A stretch of 64,000 nt of DNA, from assembly GCF_014205015.1 (NCBI RefSeq), contig NZ_JACHMO010000001.1:744001-808000 (forward strand). The letters run 5' to 3'. This document shows positions 3,948 to 38,942 of this stretch, piece after piece (position 1 is the stretch's first letter; each line of letters starts with the position of its first letter). The notes under the pieces were generated by a model. The model did not search any database. It saw only the letters and a program-made list of their open reading frames with translations, and was not told where the DNA came from. The translations under genes were made by a program, and so were the position numbers. The stretch comes from Saccharothrix ecbatanensis (GTDB taxonomy: Bacteria > Actinomycetota > Actinomycetes > Mycobacteriales > Pseudonocardiaceae).

Positions 3948-5257
3948 GCCTGGGTGTTCCCTTCAGCGACAGGCGGCGGAGTGGTGGCGCGGCCCGAATC
4001 GGTCCCGCGTTTCCAGGCGGCAAGCCCGGCCGCGATCCGCAGCTGGCCCGATGACTCCTCGACGGGTACCCGCTCCATGGGGGCCGTCGCCGTGTCGGCC
4101 GTCCCTGCGGGGACCGACGACGGCGTGCCCTGGTCGGCGTTCTGGGTCCTCCGCCGCCGAGGCAGGCCACCGGGGGTGCGTCCCATGACGGAGTCGTCCA
4201 CGGCCGGGACCGGCCTCGGCCGCTGTTCGGGCGGCAGCGCGACGGCGTTGTCGGGCATGGCGGGCTTGCTGACGCGGGTGAGCAGCTCGGTCGGCAGGAA
4301 CACCACCGCGCGCACACCGCCGTACGGCGAGCGCGTGTCCACCGAGACACGGAAGCCGTAGCGCTTGGCCAGCACGCCGATGACCGCGAAACCGACCTGC
4401 GGCGGGTCGCCGAGCCGGTTGATGTCGCTGCCGCCGTCACCGGTCAGCAGCCGGGCCGCGCGCTGCAACTCCTCGACGGTCATGCCGACGCCGCCGTCGT
4501 CGATCATCACGACCATGCCGTTGTGCGCCTGCTGGAAGTTGACCTCGACGCTGGTAGTGGGCGGCGAGTGCCGCGCGCCGTTGTCGAGCAGCTCGGCCAC
4601 GGCCAGCACCACCGGCTCGACCGCGCGGCTGATCACCGCGACGTCGGACTCGGCCGGCACGTTGATCCGCAGGTAGTCCCGGATCCGCGAGGTCGCGCCG
4701 CGCACCACGTCGGTCAACGCCGACGCCGACCGCTGCTGCCCCGGCCAGGACCCGCAGAGCACCGCGGTGGCCTGGGCCCGGCGGTTCAGCTGGGAGTTCA
4801 TGTGGTCGATCCGCATCAGGCCGGCGAGGACGTCCGGGTCGTCGTGCCGGTCCTGCATGGCCGAGATCGCGACCTGCTGCTCGTTGGACAGGCTCTGCAC
4901 CGCGCGCATCATCGACTTGAGCGTGGCGCGGGCCGACTGCTCGCCCCGCGCGGTCGCGTTCCGGACGGAGTCGGCGAACAGCGCGAGCACCCGCTCGTCA
5001 CCCTCGGCCGCCTGCGGGTGCCGGGGACCCGGGACCTCGACCGGCCGGTGGTTCAGCGTCTCGGCCAAGGCCGGCAGCCGGGCGTCGACCAGGTGCTTCT
5101 CCTCCTCGGCCCGGATACGCGCCCAGGCCTCGGCGTGCTCGGCCCGGACCAGCAGCGCTCTTGTGACGCGTCGTTGGCGTACCAGCAGGAACACGGCGAT
5201 CAGCACGATGGCGAGCAGGAACCAGAACGCCACCGCGAGTCTTTGTTGGTCCATCAA
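3944..5257 (-). CDS. cvnA: Conservon sensor-histidine-kinase-like protein CvnA
   Basis: A 437-residue membrane-anchored sensor-kinase-like protein. One N-terminal membrane helix (about 8-27) comes with almost no extracytoplasmic part, so this is a short CvnA without a large sensor domain. A helical region with a DHMNSQLNRR segment (His152) precedes a HATPase domain: N-box AELLDNGARHS (221-231) and G1 box DDGGVGM (253-259). The last ~100 residues are Pro-rich and probably disordered. There is no response regulator nearby, as expected for conservons. GAGG lies 6 bases before the ATG. It heads the cvnABCD-CYP157-CYP154 operon. Confidence 0.92.
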   Translation of the reverse strand: MMDQQRLAVAFWFLLAIVLIAVFLLVRQRRVTRALLVRAEHAEAWARIRAEEEKHLVDARLPALAETLNHRPVEVPGPRHPQAAEGDERVLALFADSVRNATARGEQSARATLKSMMRAVQSLSNEQQVAISAMQDRHDDPDVLAGLMRIDHMNSQLNRRAQATAVLCGSWPGQQRSASALTDVVRGATSRIRDYLRINVPAESDVAVISRAVEPVVLAVAELLDNGARHSPPTTSVEVNFQQAHNGMVVMIDDGGVGMTVEELQRAARLLTGDGGSDINRLGDPPQVGFAVIGVLAKRYGFRVSVDTRSPYGGVRAVVFLPTELLTRVSKPAMPDNAVALPPEQRPRPVPAVDDSVMGRTPGGLPRRRRTQNADQGTPSSVPAGTADTATAPMERVPVEESSGQLRIAAGLAAWKRGTDSGRATTPPPVAEGNTQA

Positions 5258-5991: not shown

Positions 5992-6588
5992 TCAGGACTT
6001 CATGATCTGCGGGCGGGCGATGTCCATCCACGCGCGCTCCCACCGGCGGGTGAGCGACGGGTAGACGATCAGGTAGCGGAACGGGAGGATGGCCAACATG
6101 TAAAGGCGGCCGAACAGGCCGTTGGGCTTGACCAGGGCGGCCATCCGCAATTCGTACTCGCCGCTCTCGGTGCGCACCCACCCGAGATGGGTGAGGTCGT
6201 GCACGGTCTTGTTCGCGAGTTCCTGGACGAACTCGTTCTCCAGCTCGTAGACGTTCTTGAACGGGATGAGGTCGAATTCCGCCCTCAGCGGCACGTCACG
6301 CATCTCCGCAGGAAGGCGCTCGCGCAACGAGCGCACCCGCCCTTTGAAGCCGGCTTCCGGGTCGTCCCACCCGAAAATGGCGCCGAGCTTCCAGCGGATG
6401 GCGAACAGGGCCCGGGTCGCCCAGGAGGCTTGACCGGAGATCTCCCGCAACGCCTCGATCATGAGGGGGAAGTCGTCCGGTCCGGCTCCGGGGGTGCGGA
6501 ACGACCAGACGTCCTCGATCCGGAAGTCGGGCGCGATCTCGTGGATCCGCCACGGCTGGTCGGTGTGGGCCGACTTCGGGAGCTTCAT
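5992..6588 (-). CDS. DUF2867 domain-containing protein
   Basis: A 198-residue protein of the DUF2867 family: conserved RIHEIAPDFRIEDVWSFRTPG near the N-terminus, and a C-terminal GLFGRLYMLAILPFRYLIVYPSLTRRW segment typical of the family. The function is unknown; members often accompany NAD-dependent epimerase-like or oxidative genes. The Trp- and aromatic-rich C-terminal stretch may contact membrane or lipid. The ATG at 6588 has an AAAAGGA about 11 bases upstream. Confidence 0.8.
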   Translation of the reverse strand: MKLPKSAHTDQPWRIHEIAPDFRIEDVWSFRTPGAGPDDFPLMIEALREISGQASWATRALFAIRWKLGAIFGWDDPEAGFKGRVRSLRERLPAEMRDVPLRAEFDLIPFKNVYELENEFVQELANKTVHDLTHLGWVRTESGEYELRMAALVKPNGLFGRLYMLAILPFRYLIVYPSLTRRWERAWMDIARPQIMKS

Positions 6589-6748
6589 GGCTGGTGCCGT
6601 CCTTTTCTGTCACGCAACCGGGAGCGGACCGCCGGGCTCGCTCACCTTTGTTTCGGAGCTTACCCCCGGTGACGAGGCAGTAGCTCAGTGCACCCGGTCA
6701 CACAGCCGGAAAGTGCGGCGGCCCCAAGGGAGTGGAAGAACCGCGACG

Positions 6749-6784
6749 CGCTGGAGAAGTGCCGGTCGGCCCACTTCTCCAGCG
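6749..6784. terminator. Hairpin downstream of the LLM gene
   Basis: Perfect 13-bp arms CGCTGGAGAAGTG (6749-6761) and CACTTCTCCAGCG (6772-6784) flank a 10-base loop, about 50 bases past the LLM stop. It is a probable terminator without a T-run. The rest of 6589-6833 shows no gene. Confidence 0.6.
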
Positions 6785-6833
6785 GCCGCGCGCAGCCCGT
6801 GGACCTGGTCATTTCGAGACCGTGGTTCGCGGT

Positions 6834-7748
6834 TCAGTTCCCGCTCTCGAACAGCAGGGGCGCCAGCTTTTCGAAGAGGTGCGGATCGGCCGTGACGATG
6901 CTCACCCGACTGATCCCGTAGCTCTCCAGATCACGCAGGTTCTCGGCGACCTTTTCCGGGCTGCCGAACAGTCCGCCGTACAAGGAGTCTTCGGTGAAGT
7001 GCGGGGTCAGGAACTGACTCATCGGGTCGTCACCGATACCGCACACCGCGCCGAAGCAGAGCTTCACGTCCTCCTCGACGCGACGCACCTGGTCGATCAT
7101 CTCGACGAGGCGCGTCTTCGGAATGGTCGCCAGGTCGGTGCCGTCGCTGTTGCCGTTGCGGGCCGTCGCCATGGCCGGCATGAGTTCGACCCAGTCCAGG
7201 TACGGCGTCCCGCCGGCGATGGTGCGGGGACCGGCCAGCGAGCCGATCAGCGGTGGCGGCGTCACGTCCTCGAAGCCACCGCATTCGGGCACGTTGATGT
7301 TGTAGTGCTCGCCCTCCAACACGCACTGGCCGGTGTCGAACAACTGCCGGACCACCTTGATGGCCTCGATGTAGCGGTCGGCCCGCTGCCGGGGAGCGGG
7401 GTAGACCTGGCCCGTGGAGTCCATTTCCGCCCGCGCCCACCCGGCGCCCAGGCCGGCGTTCCAGCGCCCGCCGCTGACCCGCTGCATGGTCAGCGAGGCC
7501 TGCACGAATTCGATCGGCGACCGGAACAGGTTGTTGGCGAAGCTGGACGACAGCTGCACCCGCTCGGTCGCGGCGGCCATCTGCGAGGCGGCGACCCACA
7601 GGTGGGGGTACCACCGCAGCTGGGTGCCACCGTTGTCGAGGAAGTAGTGGTCGGCGACGGCGACCGCGTCCCACCCCTCGGCCTCGCGGGTGGCGGCCCA
7701 GGTGCCGGGGTCGACATCGGGTTCCACCAGGTTCGCCAGGAACTCCAC
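6834..7748 (-). CDS. LLM-class flavin/F420-dependent oxidoreductase
   Basis: A 304-residue luciferase-like TIM-barrel oxidoreductase that would use reduced FMN or F420. Family hallmarks: WDAVAVADHYFL, TERVQLSSSFANNLFRSPIEFVQASLTMQRVSGGRWNAGLGAGW, and the C-terminal FGSPEKVAENLRDLESYGISRVSI. The GTG start at 7748 was chosen because AAAGGAG lies 5 bases upstream; longer in-frame starts lack a ribosome site and give an unlike N-terminus. It lies downstream of the FAD monooxygenase on the same strand (76-bp gap), so they may be co-transcribed. Confidence 0.85.
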   Translation of the reverse strand: MEFLANLVEPDVDPGTWAATREAEGWDAVAVADHYFLDNGGTQLRWYPHLWVAASQMAAATERVQLSSSFANNLFRSPIEFVQASLTMQRVSGGRWNAGLGAGWARAEMDSTGQVYPAPRQRADRYIEAIKVVRQLFDTGQCVLEGEHYNINVPECGGFEDVTPPPLIGSLAGPRTIAGGTPYLDWVELMPAMATARNGNSDGTDLATIPKTRLVEMIDQVRRVEEDVKLCFGAVCGIGDDPMSQFLTPHFTEDSLYGGLFGSPEKVAENLRDLESYGISRVSIVTADPHLFEKLAPLLFESGN

Positions 7749-7824
7749 GCGCACTCCTTTCCAGGAACTTGTCGAACGGGCCGCAGAGGCCTGTGCTGCG
7801 TCGGCCACCCGCGGCGCCGAGATG

Positions 7825-9642: not shown

Positions 9643-10242
9643 GTGACCATCCGGAAAGCGCCCGCGCGCATCGCCCCGGCGCCCGCGGAACAGATCCGTC
9701 CGCTGGTCGGCTTGCCCGCCAACGCGCCGACCGGCCCCGATGGACCGCTGGCGCACATCGAGGGCCGTCCCGTGCTCAACGTCCAGGCGGTCATCGGCAA
9801 GCACCCGGAGCTGTTGGTCGCGCTGAGCCCGATGCTCACCGCGCTCGGCCTCGGGGTGCTGCCCCTGCGCGACCGTGAACTGGCCGTGCTGCGCGTCGGG
9901 TACGGCCTGCGCTCCGACTACGAGTGGGCGCACCACGCGGCCGTCGGGGCCAAGGCCGGTCTCACCGAGCAGGAGATCGCCCGGGTCGCGATCGGTCCGG
10001 ACGCGCCCGGTTGGTCGGAGTTCGACGCCGCGTTGCTGCGGGCGGTCGACGAACTGCGCGGTCCTCGGGCCAGGGTGTCCGATCGGACGTGGGCGCAGTT
10101 GATCGTCCGCTACGACGAACAGCAGATGGTGGAGCTGCTGGCGACGATCGGCGCGTACACGATGCTCGCGTACATCCTGAATTCCTGCGACGTCGCCATC
10201 GAGGACTGGTTCACCGACCCCCCTGCCCTTCCGGAGGTATGA
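9643..10242 (+). CDS. Carboxymuconolactone decarboxylase family protein
   Basis: A 199-residue CMD/AhpD-fold protein: LRDRELAVLRVGYGLRSDYEWAHHAAVGAKAGLTEQEIARV is the family core. It has the DYEWAHH motif but no CxxC, so it is not a typical AhpD peroxidase. Such proteins decarboxylate gamma-carboxymuconolactone-like substrates or have unassigned roles. The GTG start at 9643 has only a weak upstream purine run. Two CTTAC-NNN-GTAAG operators upstream suggest co-regulation with the divergent FAD monooxygenase. Confidence 0.8.
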   Translation: MTIRKAPARIAPAPAEQIRPLVGLPANAPTGPDGPLAHIEGRPVLNVQAVIGKHPELLVALSPMLTALGLGVLPLRDRELAVLRVGYGLRSDYEWAHHAAVGAKAGLTEQEIARVAIGPDAPGWSEFDAALLRAVDELRGPRARVSDRTWAQLIVRYDEQQMVELLATIGAYTMLAYILNSCDVAIEDWFTDPPALPEV

Positions 10243-10253
10243 ACCACGGAAGG

Positions 10254-10294
10254 CGTGGGAACGCCCGCCACTGGGGGTGGCGGGCGTTCCCACG
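10254..10294. terminator. Bidirectional terminator between convergent genes
   Basis: Perfect 18-bp arms (CGTGGGAACGCCCGCCAC at 10254-10271 and its complement at 10277-10294) with a 5-base loop. It lies in the 57-bp gap between the CMD-like gene and the S8 protease, and can serve both. Confidence 0.9.
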
Positions 10295-10299
10295 TCAGG

Positions 10300-12027
10300 T
10301 CAGAGGAAGTCGCCGCCGCGCGTGACCGCGCCGTAAGCGTCCACGATGCCGTGGCCGTAGAAGCCGTTGAACGCCTCGTCCCCGACGCAGGTCGCGGTGA
10401 ACTCGGCCGACCGGCCCACGTTCTCGTAGGACACGGTCCGCGGCTCCGGGCACGCCCGCTTCGTGGCCGTCTTGTACAGCACCTGCTCGACCTTGTCGGG
10501 TGACAGCGTCAGCGTGCCGGGGTGCGACCGGTCCTTCTTGCCGTACTGGCTGACCACCAGCGCGGCCACGCCCGCGGCGTGCGGAGCGGCCATCGAGGTG
10601 CCCTGCGCGTAGCGGTAGTACCCGCAGGAGGAAGCGTCGCAGTACTTGGTCACGCCGGCCGCGAGGGCCGTCGGGCTGATGTTGCCTTCCGCGTCGATGT
10701 CGCCCGCGGCCAGCGCGACGTTGCGCGCGTACGCGGAGCGGATCAGGTTCTCGTTCGTCCGGTACCAGTCCGTGCCGAGGCCGTCGCGGAAGTAGCCGCC
10801 GGGAGCGGACAGGGAGGTCTGCTCGGTGCCGTAGTTGGAGTAGTCGGCCTTGGCGGTCGACGGGCCGAGGGCGGACACCGAGATGACGTGGTCGCCCTCG
10901 GTCGGGAGGTTGAGGCACGTCGCGTTGTCGATCGGGCGCGGGTAGGCCGCCCCGGGCGGGTAGTTCGGGCTGGCCACGTCGGTCCGCGGGTTGCCGAGGT
11001 CCTCGTGGTTGTTGCCGCCGGCGCCGATCAGGGTCACGCCCTTGCCGTGCGCGTAGTTCAGCGCGCGCTGGATCGCGGCGATCGTGGTCCGCTGGGCGAT
11101 CTGCGCTTCGGGGCTGTCGGCCGGGTTGGCCGCGCAGTTCATGTACCACGGGTCGACGTAGAACGACATGTTGATCACGTCGAGGCCGATGTCGGCGCCG
11201 TAGGTCAGCGCGTCCACCACCGGCTGGAGGAAGAACGAGCCGGAGTCCTGGCCGCCGCGGATGTTGACCAGCGACACGTTCGGGGCGACACCGGAGATGC
11301 CGAAGCCGTTGGCCGCCGCGCCGATGGTGCCCGCGACGTGCGTGCCGTGGCCCTGGTCGTCGTGGTCCGCGGGGTCGACGCAGCCGCGGAACTCGCACGG
11401 CCCGTCGAACTCGTCGCCGTTGGTGTCGTTCGGGATGTCGAAGGTGAAGTTGCGGGACAGCGCGCGGTTGAAGTTGGGCGCGATGTCCGGGTGCGTGCCG
11501 TCGACGCCGGTGTCCAGCACGCCGACGTAGACGCGCCGGTCACCGGCCTGCTTCGCCCGTGCGATGTCCGAGCGGACCAGGCGCAGGCCCCACAGGGCGT
11601 CGTCGAGCGGGTCCAGGCCGGCCGTGGTCGAGGGAGCGACCTTGCGGGTGGTCACGCCCGGCGCGCCGACGTGCTCGTTCTCCACGTCATGGGCTTTCCG
11701 CGCGCCGCGGTTGCCGTTGGCCGGGAGCTTCCCGATCGGTGTCACCGGTGCGGCTCCGAACACCGCGTCGGAGGCGGTGACGCGCTGGACGAAGCCGGTG
11801 GCGGGCGCCTTCACGGTCAGCGTGCCGACCGCGGTGTTCTCGACCGTGACCCGACCGCCCGCGGCCCGGACCGCGGCACGTGCCGCCTGGCTGGTCGCGC
11901 CGACCTCCACCAGCACGGTGTAGTCGGTGGTCCGCTGTTCGCCTGACGCGGGTTGGACGCCCGCTACGAGCATCGCCGCCGCACTCGCCAGCGCAAGCGC
12001 GGGGCGGGTGAGTCTGTGTGCCCTCAC
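10300..12027 (-). CDS. Secreted S8 family (subtilisin-like) serine peptidase
   Basis: A 575-residue secreted protease. A signal peptide (about 1-29, ending ASG) is followed by a propeptide-like region (DYTVLVEVG... to about 140) and the S8 domain. The triad is Asp172 (VLDTGVDGTHP), His227 (HGTHVAGT) and Ser477 (GTSMAAPHAAG), with oxyanion Asn in AGGNNH near 339. Cys pairs (211/216, 462/467) suggest disulphides. The GTG start at 12027 has GGGAG 5 bases upstream and begins a normal signal peptide. It is a single-gene unit with its own promoter region (12028-12242) and a terminator. Confidence 0.92.
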   Translation of the reverse strand: MRAHRLTRPALALASAAAMLVAGVQPASGEQRTTDYTVLVEVGATSQAARAAVRAAGGRVTVENTAVGTLTVKAPATGFVQRVTASDAVFGAAPVTPIGKLPANGNRGARKAHDVENEHVGAPGVTTRKVAPSTTAGLDPLDDALWGLRLVRSDIARAKQAGDRRVYVGVLDTGVDGTHPDIAPNFNRALSRNFTFDIPNDTNGDEFDGPCEFRGCVDPADHDDQGHGTHVAGTIGAAANGFGISGVAPNVSLVNIRGGQDSGSFFLQPVVDALTYGADIGLDVINMSFYVDPWYMNCAANPADSPEAQIAQRTTIAAIQRALNYAHGKGVTLIGAGGNNHEDLGNPRTDVASPNYPPGAAYPRPIDNATCLNLPTEGDHVISVSALGPSTAKADYSNYGTEQTSLSAPGGYFRDGLGTDWYRTNENLIRSAYARNVALAAGDIDAEGNISPTALAAGVTKYCDASSCGYYRYAQGTSMAAPHAAGVAALVVSQYGKKDRSHPGTLTLSPDKVEQVLYKTATKRACPEPRTVSYENVGRSAEFTATCVGDEAFNGFYGHGIVDAYGAVTRGGDFL

Positions 12028-34506: not shown

Positions 34507-34866
34507 TCAAGCGGTCTCCAGCTCTAGGGCCTGCCGCAGCCATGCCGTGAACAGGTCGTCGTTGACGTCGTCGGTGCTGCGGAGCTTGAGAGCGGCCATG
34601 CGCGCACCGGGTTCGAGGCGGCCGGACAGGTCCTCGATCTCCTGGCCACGCCAGAAGCCGAAGGTCACGTGCGCGGGGTAGGCCTTGACGAGGCAGACGG
34701 GCTGCTTGCCGGGCGTCGGGCCCAGGCTCCATACCGGGTGCCCGTGCCAGACGGCGCCGGTGCCGGGCAGGGCGTCCTCGATCAAGTCGAGGAGCCGGAC
34801 GGCGATCTCGCGCTGCTTCTCGGGCAGGGAGTGGACGTACTCGGCGACCGTGGCGAACTTCGGCAT
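34507..34866 (-). CDS. DUF1801 domain protein
   Basis: A 119-residue protein of the DUF1801/YdhG-like fold: VAEYVHSLPEKQREIAVRLLDLIEDALPG and VWHGHPVWSLGPTPGKQPVCLVKAYPAHVTFGFWRGQE. GAAAGGA precedes the ATG. The function is not established. It is divergent from the YCII/sigma unit. Confidence 0.78.
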   Translation of the reverse strand: MPKFATVAEYVHSLPEKQREIAVRLLDLIEDALPGTGAVWHGHPVWSLGPTPGKQPVCLVKAYPAHVTFGFWRGQEIEDLSGRLEPGARMAALKLRSTDDVNDDLFTAWLRQALELETA

Positions 34867-35004
34867 GTCGGTAATCCTTTCTCGGATTCGGTTCTCACCC
34901 CTCCGTCGATCGGACGATGTGACAGGGAATGCGCCCGTTCCCTGTCGGATAGGTTGGTCGTCGTCAAGGTGACAGCACGTCACCGACAGCGAAAGGCCAG
35001 ACCG

Positions 35005-35328
35005 ATGCGCTACCTGATGATGCAGATGGCGACCGAGCACGCCCCCGACGAGCGGCTCTTCGCCGAGATGGGCAGGTTCATCGAGGAGATGGCCGCGTCC
35101 GGGCTGCTGCTGGCCACCGGTGGGCTGGACGCGGCCGGCACCCGGATCACCTCCGAGGGTGACGAGATCACCGTGACCGACGGGCCGTTCACCGAGGCCA
35201 AGGAGGTCGTGGCCGGGTTCGCGCTGATCGAGGTCCGCTCCAAGGAAGAGGCCGTCGAGCTGGGCCGTCGGTTCCGCCGGATCGTGGGGGACGGTGAGAG
35301 CCGCATCCACCAGGTCTTCGGGCCGTGA
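35005..35328 (+). CDS. YCII-related (DGPF) domain protein
   Basis: A 107-residue YCII-like protein with the DGPFTEAKEVVAGFALIEVRSKEEA motif of the DGPF family. These proteins are the usual genomic partner of ECF42-type sigma factors. GAAAGG lies 8 bases before the ATG. The stop overlaps the sigma-factor start (GTGA), so translation is coupled. Confidence 0.88.
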   Translation: MRYLMMQMATEHAPDERLFAEMGRFIEEMAASGLLLATGGLDAAGTRITSEGDEITVTDGPFTEAKEVVAGFALIEVRSKEEAVELGRRFRRIVGDGESRIHQVFGP

Positions 35329-37316
35329 CCGATGTCCGCCGCACGATCGACGCGGTCTGGAAGCTCGAGTCCGCCGCCCTCATCGGCGGTCTGACCCGCT
35401 TGGTGCGGGACGTCGGACTCGCCGAAGAGCTGGCCCAGGACGCGCTGGTCACGGCGCTGGAGCAGTGGCCGTCCTCGGGCGTGCCGGACAACCCGGCGGC
35501 CTGGCTGATGACCACGGCCAAGCGGCGCGGGATCGACCACATGCGGCGGGCCGAACGACTCACGCGCAGGCACGAGCAGCTTGCGCGTGAGCTGGACCAG
35601 CCGCGTGACGTCGAGCAGCGGGACGTCGAGCACCACGACGTTCAGCACGATGACGTCCTGCGGCTGATGTTCCTGTCCTCGCACCCGGTGCTGCCGACCG
35701 AGCAACGGGTCGCGTTGACGCTCCGGGTGGTCGGCGGGCTGACGGCCGCGGAGATCGCGCGGGCGTTCCTGGTCACCGAACAGCGGATCGCGCAGCGCAT
35801 CGCCGCGGCGAAGCAGGCCCTCTCCGGTGTGCCGATCGAGCTGCCGGAGGGGGCTTCGCTCGCGGAACGGCTGTCGTCGGTGCTGGAGGTCGTGTACCTG
35901 ATCTTCAACGAGGGCTACTCGGCGACCGCCGGGGACGACTTGATGCGGCTCGACCTGACCCTGGAGGCGTTGCGGCTGGGCAGGTTGCTGGCCGAACTCG
36001 CGCCGGACGAGGCCGAGGTGCACGGGCTGGTCGCGTTGATGGAGATCCAGGCGTCGCGGTCGGCCGCGCGGACCGGGCCGTCCGGCGAGCCGGTCCAGCT
36101 GCACGAGCAGAACCGCGGCCGCTGGGATCGGTTGCTCATCCGGCGCGGGTTCACCGCGTTGCTGCGGGCGCGTGACATCGGTGGTCCACCGGGGCCGTAC
36201 GTGCTCCAGGCGGCGATCGCGGTGTGCCACGCGCAGGCCCGCACCGCCGAGGACACCGACTGGCGGCAGATCTCGACGTTGTACGACGCACTCGTCCGCC
36301 TGCGGCCCACGCCGGTCGTGCGGCTGAACCGGGCGGTCGCGGTCGGCTTCGCACAGGGTCCGGAAGCGGGGCTCGCGCTGGCCGACGAGCTGTCGACGGA
36401 CCGCACCCTGCTGGACTACCACCTGCTGCCCGGCGTCCGAGGTGATCTGCTGGCGAAGTTGGGACGGCCGGCCGAGGCGAGGGTGGAGTTCGCGCGTGCC
36501 GCGGCGTTGACGAGGAACGCGGCCGAGCGGGACTTCCTGCTGCGGCGTGCGGACGAACTGGGCACGGCCGCGCCGGTGGTGACGCTGGGGCAGGCGGCCA
36601 CGGACTTCCTGGCCCGTGACGACCTGGACGCGGCGACGAAGCGGTCGTACGCGCAGACCTTGCGGCGGCTGTGCTCGGCGCTGGGGGACAGGCGGCCACT
36701 GGAATCCCTGACCGCCGACGAGATCGCGGCCGTGTTCGAAGTGGCCTGGGGTGACGCGGCGGCCAAGACGTGGAACCGGCACCGGTCGACGGTCCGGTCG
36801 TTCGGCGCGTGGGCCGCGTTGCCGGACTTGCCGGACTTGCCGCACTTGGCGGCCATGGTGGAGCGGCGGGTCGAGAGCAGTGTGCGAACCCCCGGCCTCA
36901 CCGCCGCGCAACTGGAACGGCTGTGGGAGTTCGAGGTTCCGGTGCGGGAGCGGACGTTGTGGCGGCTGCTGCACGAATCGGCCGCGGGAGTGCGCGTGGT
37001 GTTGTCGCTGAACGTGGAGGACCTGGACCTGGACGACCGCCGCGCCCGCGTGGCCGGCCGGTGGGTGACCTGGCGTTCCGGCACGGCGCGACTGCTGCCC
37101 GTCCTGCTCGCCGGGCGCGGACGCGGGCCGCTGTTCCTGGCCGACCGCCGCCCCGGACCGGCGCGCCCGCGAGCAGCGGCGGACCTGTGCCCGGACACCG
37201 GCCGGGGACGACTGTCGTACGAACGGGCGGAATACCTGTTCAAGCGGGCGACGCGAGCCCTTGATCCCGCTGGACAGGGGCACACGTTGCGGCAGCTGTG
37301 GTCAGGTCGGCGCTAG
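35325..37316 (+). CDS. ECF42-like sigma factor fused to a tyrosine-recombinase-like domain
   Basis: A 663-residue fusion. Residues about 1-170 are an ECF sigma factor: sigma2 DAVWKLESAALIGGLTRLVRDVGLAEELAQDALVTALEQW, sigma4 region PTEQRVALTLRVVGGLTAAEIARAFLVTEQRIAQRIAAAK. Residues ~175-410 are the ECF42-type C-terminal domain (VVYLIFNEGYSAT, TPR-like end). Residues ~420-663 resemble a tyrosine recombinase: a core-binding segment (AATDFLARDDLDAATKRSYAQTLRRL) then a catalytic-like domain (LLHESAAGVRVVLSLNVEDLDLDDRRARV). HTLR at 653-656 matches HxxR, but the first catalytic Arg appears to be Gly and the protein ends 7 residues after HTLR, before any Tyr. It is thus probably a non-cutting DNA-binding appendage. 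GTGA overlap with the YCII gene. Confidence 0.85.
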   Translation: MTDVRRTIDAVWKLESAALIGGLTRLVRDVGLAEELAQDALVTALEQWPSSGVPDNPAAWLMTTAKRRGIDHMRRAERLTRRHEQLARELDQPRDVEQRDVEHHDVQHDDVLRLMFLSSHPVLPTEQRVALTLRVVGGLTAAEIARAFLVTEQRIAQRIAAAKQALSGVPIELPEGASLAERLSSVLEVVYLIFNEGYSATAGDDLMRLDLTLEALRLGRLLAELAPDEAEVHGLVALMEIQASRSAARTGPSGEPVQLHEQNRGRWDRLLIRRGFTALLRARDIGGPPGPYVLQAAIAVCHAQARTAEDTDWRQISTLYDALVRLRPTPVVRLNRAVAVGFAQGPEAGLALADELSTDRTLLDYHLLPGVRGDLLAKLGRPAEARVEFARAAALTRNAAERDFLLRRADELGTAAPVVTLGQAATDFLARDDLDAATKRSYAQTLRRLCSALGDRRPLESLTADEIAAVFEVAWGDAAAKTWNRHRSTVRSFGAWAALPDLPDLPHLAAMVERRVESSVRTPGLTAAQLERLWEFEVPVRERTLWRLLHESAAGVRVVLSLNVEDLDLDDRRARVAGRWVTWRSGTARLLPVLLAGRGRGPLFLADRRPGPARPRAAADLCPDTGRGRLSYERAEYLFKRATRALDPAGQGHTLRQLWSGRR

Positions 37317-38207: not shown

Positions 38208-38816
38208 ATGAGAGTCATGAGCGAGGAGTTGACCGACGTGCCCGCGGTCCCGCCCGCGCCCGGCGCGGAGGACTACCTGGCCCTGGATTTCGTCAACAGC
38301 GCCATCGCGCTGCCTGGAGGGCAGTTCGTCGACTTGCTCGGCACCGCCGGCGCGACGAACCAGTGGCTCACCGGACACGGGCTCGCCCCGCCCGATGCCG
38401 GCGTGCAGGAGACGTGCGCGACACGCCTTCGCTCGCTGCGCGAACACATCAGGGCGCTGTTCGTCGCCCACGTCGGTGGGCTGCCCGCGTCGCCGGAGGC
38501 CGTGTCCGCCCTCAACCACGCCCTGAGCAGGGCGCCCACCGCCGCCCTGCTCCTGTGGGACGAGAAATCCGGCCCCTACCGCGCGGCGCCGTGCCCGACG
38601 CACGAGATTCTCGACCACGCCCTCGCGGCGCTCGCCGCCAACGCCGCCGACCTGCTCACCGGACCGGACGCCGACCGCCTGACCAAGTGCGGCTCCAGCC
38701 CGTGCAACCGCCACTTGCTCCGCCACGGTCGCCGCCACTGGTGCTCCACCCGCTGCGGCGACCGGGCCCGCGCCGCCCGCGCCTACGCCCGCCGCACCGA
38801 GCCGCAACCGGACTGA
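38208..38816 (+). CDS. CGNR zinc-finger transcriptional regulator
   Basis: A 202-residue protein with the ABATE/CGNR layout: N-terminal DYLALDFVNSAIALPGGQFVDLLGTAGATNQWLT and a C-terminal zinc finger KCGSSPCNRHLLRHGRRHWCSTRCGDRARAARAY. This finger holds four Cys and carries SSPC-N-R in place of the strict C-G-N-R. The start (38208 or 38217) has no clear ribosome site. The last codons (EPQPD then stop) are the first unit of a 16-bp tandem repeat. It is divergent from the MBL protein, which it may regulate. Confidence 0.82.
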   Translation: MRVMSEELTDVPAVPPAPGAEDYLALDFVNSAIALPGGQFVDLLGTAGATNQWLTGHGLAPPDAGVQETCATRLRSLREHIRALFVAHVGGLPASPEAVSALNHALSRAPTAALLLWDEKSGPYRAAPCPTHEILDHALAALAANAADLLTGPDADRLTKCGSSPCNRHLLRHGRRHWCSTRCGDRARAARAYARRTEPQPD

Positions 38817-38942
38817 GCCGCAACCGGACTGAGCCGCAACCGGACTGAGCCGCAACCGGACTGAGCCGCAGTCGGACTGAGCCGCAACCGGACTGAGCCG
38901 CAGCCGCACCGAGCCGCAGCCGGACTGAGCCGCAGTCGGACT
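38799..38942. repeat. Nine-copy 16-bp tandem repeat
   Basis: Nine contiguous 16-bp units start at 38799, 38815, 38831 and so on. Five units read GAGCCGCAACCGGACT (1-4 and 6); units 5, 7, 8 and 9 vary at a few positions. The first unit encodes the last five residues of the CGNR protein, and the stop codon TGA spans units 1 and 2. There are no spacers, so this is not CRISPR. Confidence 0.92.

Follow-up and report, generated by a model that had tools for sequence, protein, structure and literature searches.

We describe an ECF42-type sigma factor of Saccharothrix ecbatanensis that continues, in a single frame, into a degenerate tyrosine recombinase, and propose that this dead domain has probably taken over the reading of the −35 region at a bidirectional promoter. 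The gene lies in the window, by which we mean the whole stretch of 64,000 nucleotides that was analyzed. We also lean, with somewhat less confidence, towards a stronger version taken as a whole, in which −35 reading has been outsourced to the captured dead domain, sigma4 no longer reads DNA, and a single bidirectional promoter is all that is left of the regulon, the change being recorded by living intermediates.

The fused gene

An earlier note on this DNA, made from the letters alone, had read one 663-codon frame running from sigma2, sigma4 and an ECF42-type C-terminal domain into a recombinase-like part, beside a DGPF/YCII gene. The fusion and the frame hold, while one motif assignment (HTLR, see below) does not. 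The frame is free of internal stops (Table 1), the upstream gene is YCII/DGPF by Pfam, and Sigma70_r2 (residues 21-78), Sigma70_r4_2 (121-166) and DUF6596 (182-282) are all above the Pfam cut-off. The protein therefore has the ECF42 features, i.e., sigma2 and sigma4 without sigma3, a C-terminal DUF6596 and then TPR-like helices, the TPR label being weak because the Pfam matches to TPR families are below the cut-off. DUF6596 was found at 12 places in this genome. As for the recombinase part, Phage_int_SAM_1 (436-497) passes the Pfam cut-off and Phage_integrase falls short of it (E 0.056 when only the C-terminal part was the query). Structure searches returned tyrosine-recombinase folds, with a SAM-like core-binding domain and a truncated catalytic-domain fold; among these matches were SroF and MrpR. 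The predicted model of the full-length protein had a pTM of 0.57. Sequence profiles searched against PDB chains gave only one chance-like match for the C-terminal domain, and only sigma factors for the full-length protein. No second match to the recombinase part was found in the window's genome at E ≤ 1e-3, only the protein itself. Elsewhere in the window, at about 38790-38940, minus-strand frames with a short repeated unit (SGCGSVRLRLSPVAAQ...) correspond to a stretch of tandemly repeated DNA that separates two genes.

Table 1. Features of the fused gene, its operon and its promoter region (positions in the window).
Feature	Position	Strand	Remarks
Divergent gene, DUF1801	34507..34866	-	
Putative mirrored divergent promoter	34904..34929	-	left arm + CGACG (34904-34908)
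Inverted repeat	34917..34950	.	13-bp arms 34917-34929 / 34938-34950, spacer 8; recombinase core-site geometry
Putative forward promoter	34938..34963	+	right arm at −35, CGTC (34959-34962) as −10
YCII/DGPF gene, first in putative operon	35005..35328	+	Pfam
ECF42-type sigma factor + degenerate tyrosine-recombinase domain	35325..37316	+	663 codons; GTG start at 35325 overlaps DGPF stop; TAG ends at 37316
Sigma region 2	35349..35564	+	about residues 9-80
Sigma region 4	35685..35822	+	residues 121-166; Pfam
Sigma4 recognition helix	35772..35807	+	residues 150-161; position 161 is Ala in the window
DUF6596, typical of ECF42 extensions	35868..36170	+	residues 182-282; Pfam
Helical, weakly TPR-like part of ECF42 extension	36171..36557	+	residues 283-411; TPR below cut-off
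Recombinase core-binding (SAM-like) domain with TWNRHR	36603..36869	+	residues 427-515
Catalytic-like recombinase domain, truncated, ending at former HxxR box	36909..37298	+	residues 529-658
G555 at catalytic Arg I site	36987..36989	+	alignment
R656-Q-L-W659, site of lost HxxR box	37290..37301	+	alignment

Distribution and phylogeny of the fusion

Searching with the C-terminal part retrieved 583 protein matches at E ≤ 1e-3 (7,994 candidates scored), and the best 120 of them were mostly about 650 amino acids long with the same Pfam domains, those with names that we examined being Actinomycetota. From a genome scan, 80 of 156 encoding loci were retained as named loci. Sigma similarity lay in the same open frame in 76 of the 80, and a DGPF gene just upstream in 74; the fused counts leave out four stand-alone loci. 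Two loci, L056 and L086, have their sigma part distributed over two frames, and L081 is partial, covering residues 307-412 only. An even draw from the class gave matches in 33 of 394 genomes at E ≤ 1e-30 (stand-alone relatives counted in), and a phylum-wide draw gave three of 296, one of them the window's own genome. Out of 60 relatives, 20 had a match at E ≤ 1e-3 and only three a collinear fused gene, namely the own genome, G033 (70% identity) and G047 (63%), with nearly full-length alignments; the same fusion thus occurs in other genomes, as the earlier note had proposed to check.

In a tree of the recombinase part (91 rows, L081 left out) all fused proteins fall on one side of a branch with support of 99/91, the bootstrap not being settled. 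A quick-method tree of the sigma part (114 rows; L056, L081 and L086 left out of the alignment) also places them on one side of a branch, with an SH-aLRT of 99, the only support computed there and accompanied by a long-branch warning among the unfused rows. The fused proteins are a large, conserved family of actinobacteria and, judged by both trees, a single clade. Its first branch consists of five Streptosporangiaceae loci (L105, L115, L116, L119 and L122), which we term early; the rest is termed the main clade. One Sphaerisporangium MAG carries both a main-clade (L054) and an early-type fusion (L105).

Loss of the catalytic residues

The catalytic set of tyrosine recombinases (Arg I, Lys, HxxR, His/Trp and Tyr) is missing from the window protein, which has G555, R656 and W659 at the aligned sites and no counterpart of the Lys, His/Trp or Tyr. 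The earlier note was right that the first Arg had become Gly and that the protein ends ahead of the Tyr. Its HTLR at residues 653-656, taken for the HxxR box, is three residues off register and was rejected; TLHQLRHS of the catalytic relatives aligns with R656-Q-L-W659, so both the H and the R of the box have been replaced. Throughout the 79 fused rows (76 loci, the window, G033 and G047), Arg I is Arg in three, HxxR is whole in five, the next His is present in four and the Tyr in one. This last is L105, the sole fused row to keep Arg I, HxxR, His and Tyr. Judged by the same alignment columns, HxxR, His and Tyr are all intact in the four closest stand-alone proteins, of which L100 and L117 also have Arg I and Lys whole, L108 is without both and L120 without Lys. 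By these residues, catalysis is lost in the fused recombinase domain, and strand exchange by the window protein is expected to be absent.

None of the 79 fused rows has changed the W, N or R of TWNRHR in its core-binding domain, and among 58 aligned proteins residues 601-658, the final part of the catalytic-like domain, contain 24 invariant columns with a mean majority of 0.86 (19 and 0.85 for sigma4).

An inverted repeat with recombinase-site geometry

Core sites of tyrosine recombinases consist of inverted arms of about 11-13 bp around a short spacer. When we read the stretches that precede DGPF in 75 promoters (those of the window and of the 74 loci that have a DGPF gene), a consensus repeat emerged, ATGTGACAGGGAA-N8-TTCCCTGTCACAT, which in its sequence has this inverted core-site layout. 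The window copy has two mismatches and did not occur in any of 100 shuffles; a relaxed pattern, TGACAGGGAA-N5-10-TTCCCTGTC, matches exactly once in the 9.69-Mb genome, at the repeat itself. The full repeat (at least 20/26) is present in 63 of the 75 fused promoters, with a spacer of 8 in 50, 9 in eight, 10 in three, 12 in one and 16 in one. At least one arm (≥11/13) stands within 200 bp of DGPF in 70/70 main-clade and 5/5 early loci and in 0/40 unfused ECF42 operons, these 40 being 11 from the window's genome and 29 best matches elsewhere rather than a random draw. The repeat as a general feature of ECF42/DGPF promoters is thus ruled out. L043 and L104 retain the left arm upstream of DGPF and miss the right one.

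The same repeat, with a spacer of 7, was found near all four of the closest stand-alone recombinase genes, where no sigma similarity was found and no CG[AT]C stands 8-9 nt from the repeat. This is why the repeat looks like the ancestral core site of the recombinase, and the spacer at fused loci, which varies and differs from 7, fits a site no longer used for strand exchange. Another 58 loci, mostly of more distant recombinase relatives and searched within short stretches of DNA, included three (L166-L168) with a weaker repeat (21-22/26) and 55 with none. The exact repeat was present in five of the 394 class genomes (the reversed control pattern in no genome listed): three times at fused genes, once at a stand-alone gene and once beside an ECF42 fragment. 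The stand-alone case is Thermomonospora echinospora (G297), and it is not independent of L117. The fragment case, L189 of G371, has a spacer-7 repeat beside the ECF42 fragment (near 5133 and 9921-10426), with pieces of the fused sigma-recombinase gene and of DGPF about 5 kb away; it is possibly a decayed or rearranged locus. The T. echinospora genome carries, besides the stand-alone L117 with its 13-7-13 repeat, a main-clade fusion (L066) with its own repeat, and cross-talk between the two is possible. Near L117, frames read by eye at about 4090-4800 and 6538-7800 resemble a ParA-type partition protein and a group II intron reverse transcriptase, which hints at a mobile-element origin.

The arm at the −35 position

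The −35 element of ECF42 promoters is TGTCGA. Many of the unfused operons have a TGTCGA-like −35 and a CG[AT]C-like −10, and TGTCGA-N16-18-CGW was found in 21/40 of them, in 3/5 early fusions and in 1/70 of the main clade (L089, upstream of its repeat). As 19 of the 40 unfused promoters lack the exact hexamer, the ordinary −35 is looser than one hexamer; in the early fusions, the two promoters without the exact form have GGTCGA. A first search of the fused promoters for TGTCGN-CG[AT]C gave 13/75. In the window no TGTCGA −35 is present and the arm stands there instead. Early fusions have one or two arms farther away, at −124 to −189, upstream of their ordinary ECF42 promoter. In contrast, an arm followed by the −10 was found at 59 of the 70 main-clade loci. 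When G033 and G047 were added (n=77; both recur among the ten further loci below), the right arm ended 8-9 nt ahead of CG[AT]C in 61 of 65 repeat promoters, and nine of its 13 bases were 92-100% conserved in these 65, which were chosen for having the repeat. Together, the counts show that in the main clade the arm has replaced the ECF42 −35 hexamer, as far as promoter sequence can tell.

In 44 of the 65, a mirror image of this arrangement stands on the left at the corresponding distance of 12 nt, which points to a divergent promoter. On that side, 53 of 75 loci have a divergent gene family with one member assigned to DUF998 by Pfam. A DUF1801 homologue is found at 26/80 loci and is directly divergent in nine, as it is in the window. 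We also searched 12 genomes for the arm plus −10. In six (G000, G033, G047, G297, G323 and G440) the sole matches were the divergent pair of the fused operon. G199 had the pair and two other matches, G128 a single match near its fused gene, G236 one elsewhere, and three genomes none; the reversed control gave one match each in G033 and G144.

Relaxation of the sigma4 recognition helix

Arg stands at position 161, the last of the recognition helix, in 40/40 unfused and 5/5 early proteins and in only 1/69 of the main clade (L087); in the main clade, 11 different residues occupy this position. The four largest rises in entropy over residues 9-281 are at 161, 154, 151 and 150, all in this helix. 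Sigma2 and DUF6596, on the other hand, vary less on average in the main clade than among the unfused proteins, which are a more diverse set. These residue changes show a relaxed sigma4 helix in the main clade. R158 is nevertheless kept in 66 of the 69 proteins, so sigma4 may still touch DNA.

Ten loci outside the motif derivation were also inspected, leaving out five of 13 regions whose genomes were already among the named loci; G144 and G217 belong to the genus Microbispora, of which two other genomes were already in the set. Seven have the repeat, with T, A, T, D, A, R (G323) and A at position 161. The other three have half-sites and no repeat, Arg in every case, and in two the TGTCGA promoter. 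Arg161 thus coexists with arms at the promoter in L087 and G323. L087, a main-clade member, has a long spacer of about 22 between its arms and looks like an intermediate. L214 (G379) combines a main-clade-like truncated tail with an early-type promoter (half-sites and TGTCGA) and Arg161, by which tail loss seems separable from the promoter switch.

A proposed history and its alternatives

We suggest that a tyrosine recombinase was gained once at the C-terminus of an ECF42 sigma factor, since both trees unite the fused proteins in a single clade. The recombinase then lost the catalytic residues as well as some 50 residues at its end and kept the DNA-reading half, to judge from sequence and predicted fold. 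We infer that the −35 contact of sigma4 has given way to binding of the arm by this domain, and continued recognition of the ancestral 13-bp core-site arm is suggested by the same arm standing at fused and closest stand-alone loci. In a first stage, which early-branching fusions would still represent, arms lay upstream of an ordinary ECF42 promoter. In the main clade, window included, the arm would have moved into the −35 position, the ECF42 hexamer vanished, and the sigma4 helix been freed from constraint. Most likely, the holoenzyme is brought to the promoter by the dead domain on the arm and sigma2 on the −10, sigma4 now mainly holding RNA polymerase. With their mirrored arrangement, the two arms would let one bidirectional promoter serve both the DGPF-sigma operon and the divergent gene (DUF1801 here, often DUF998 elsewhere), and the pattern searches suggest that the sigma factor works mainly, or even exclusively, on its own gene and the neighboring one. 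On the tree, the change in the main clade happened a single time, and the match between promoter and sigma4 therefore counts as one history, although position 161 now carries 11 different residues. Against the handover stand L043 and L104, without a right arm, and L087 and G323, with Arg161 despite their arms. The retention of R158 in most of the main clade also counts against it, as does the clash that would follow if the domain and sigma4 met the same bases. The earlier note had seen in the recombinase part a possible DNA-targeting or dimerization module for the sigma factor, an interpretation that our comparisons support; the inverted repeat and the changed sigma4 helix were absent from it.

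Since the repeat overlaps the −35 region of the operon's own promoter, the domain could instead be an autorepressor that binds it as an operator and shuts its own operon, with sigma4 driving transcription when the operator is free. Recombinase-fold repressors do exist (MrpR, PMC10516654), and SroF and MrpR were among the fold matches. We consider this unlikely because an operator alone would leave the ECF42 −35 and the sigma4 helix unchanged, and the ordinary −35 with its −10 is gone from 69 of the 70 main-clade promoters and the helix is relaxed. Another reading, for which we see even less of a case, is that sigma4 itself was respecified to read TTCCC at −35, leaving the recombinase domain another role. 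Sigma4 has indeed changed, and the outer half of the arm sits where the −35 hexamer was; against this, the variety of residues at position 161 contrasts with the near-constancy of most right-arm bases, and an identical arm is found at the closest stand-alone recombinases.

According to PMC8999054, ECF42 extensions are believed to act through protein contact, and the remnant might accordingly be a regulatory or structural appendage, or a relic, with another factor reading the repeat. This we regard as very improbable, given that the arm tracks the domain (75/75 fused against 0/40 unfused), occurs at the four closest stand-alone recombinases, and that the window's genome gave no second match to the domain at E ≤ 1e-3. 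A sequencing or assembly error joining two genes, a check that the earlier note had called for, has a negligible chance of being the explanation. L056 and L086 do show a frame change within the sigma part, but most of the 80 named loci and of the best 120 database matches have the same architecture, and the collinear fusion in independent genomes, aligned over nearly the whole length, refutes it. The takeover of −35 reading by the dead domain is the account that we favor.

Comparison with known systems

The ECF42 protein and neighbor features and the recombinase fold are known; the promoter and the dead enzyme are what differ. The window protein shares with ECF42 sigma factors sigma2, sigma4, DUF6596, the helical extension, a DGPF gene directly upstream and a CG[AT]C −10. 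Unlike them, it adds a 248-residue recombinase domain and has the arm in place of the −35 hexamer, and its family has a relaxed sigma4 helix and, by pattern search, few genome-wide sites. The sites of XerH, Tn1549 integrase, lambda integrase and Cre have inverted 13-bp arms around a short spacer. With these enzymes the window protein has in common the core-binding domain and most of the catalytic fold, but it is without Arg I, Lys, HxxR, His and Tyr and ends at the HxxR box; the spacer in the fused family is mostly 8 and up to 16, compared with 7 at the closest stand-alone recombinases.

MrpR (YopR) of the Bacillus phage SPbeta is described in PMC10516654 as a recombinase-fold transcription repressor that has lost recombination. 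Together with SroF of phi3T (known from PDB titles), it resembles the case proposed here in using a recombinase fold that binds DNA for gene control; both are phage repressors and, in these sources, are not described as sigma-fused. Of a possible kinship to them, fold matches are what was observed. In Table 3 of PMC11256431, S. venezuelae RS35505 is labeled "r2, r4, phage int", and from these domain labels it is probably a member of the fused family; in the main text, RS35505 and "phage int" each appear once, in that table. Integrase or recombinase parts are not mentioned in the available portions of the ECF-extension reviews PMC8999054 and PMC8103513, nor in those of a cyanobacterial sigma survey that treats DUF6596 (PMC11119718). 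Within the portions of the open-licence PMC literature covered, the fusion is not described beyond that Table 3 entry, and there is no account of the repeat site or of a −35 handover. The new result is the arm repeat upstream of DGPF.

Implications

Sigma factors are taught as proteins in which sigma2 reads the −10 and sigma4 the −35. The family described here suggests that a DNA binder with no ancestry in common can take on the −35 job, and that living genomes still preserve this handover at an early and a late stage. It would link mobile-element enzymes to the core transcription machinery and offers a ready test case for the re-plumbing of promoter specificity. As a natural chimera of a sigma factor and a DNA binder, with seemingly very few sites per genome, it may also be of interest for orthogonal gene circuits.
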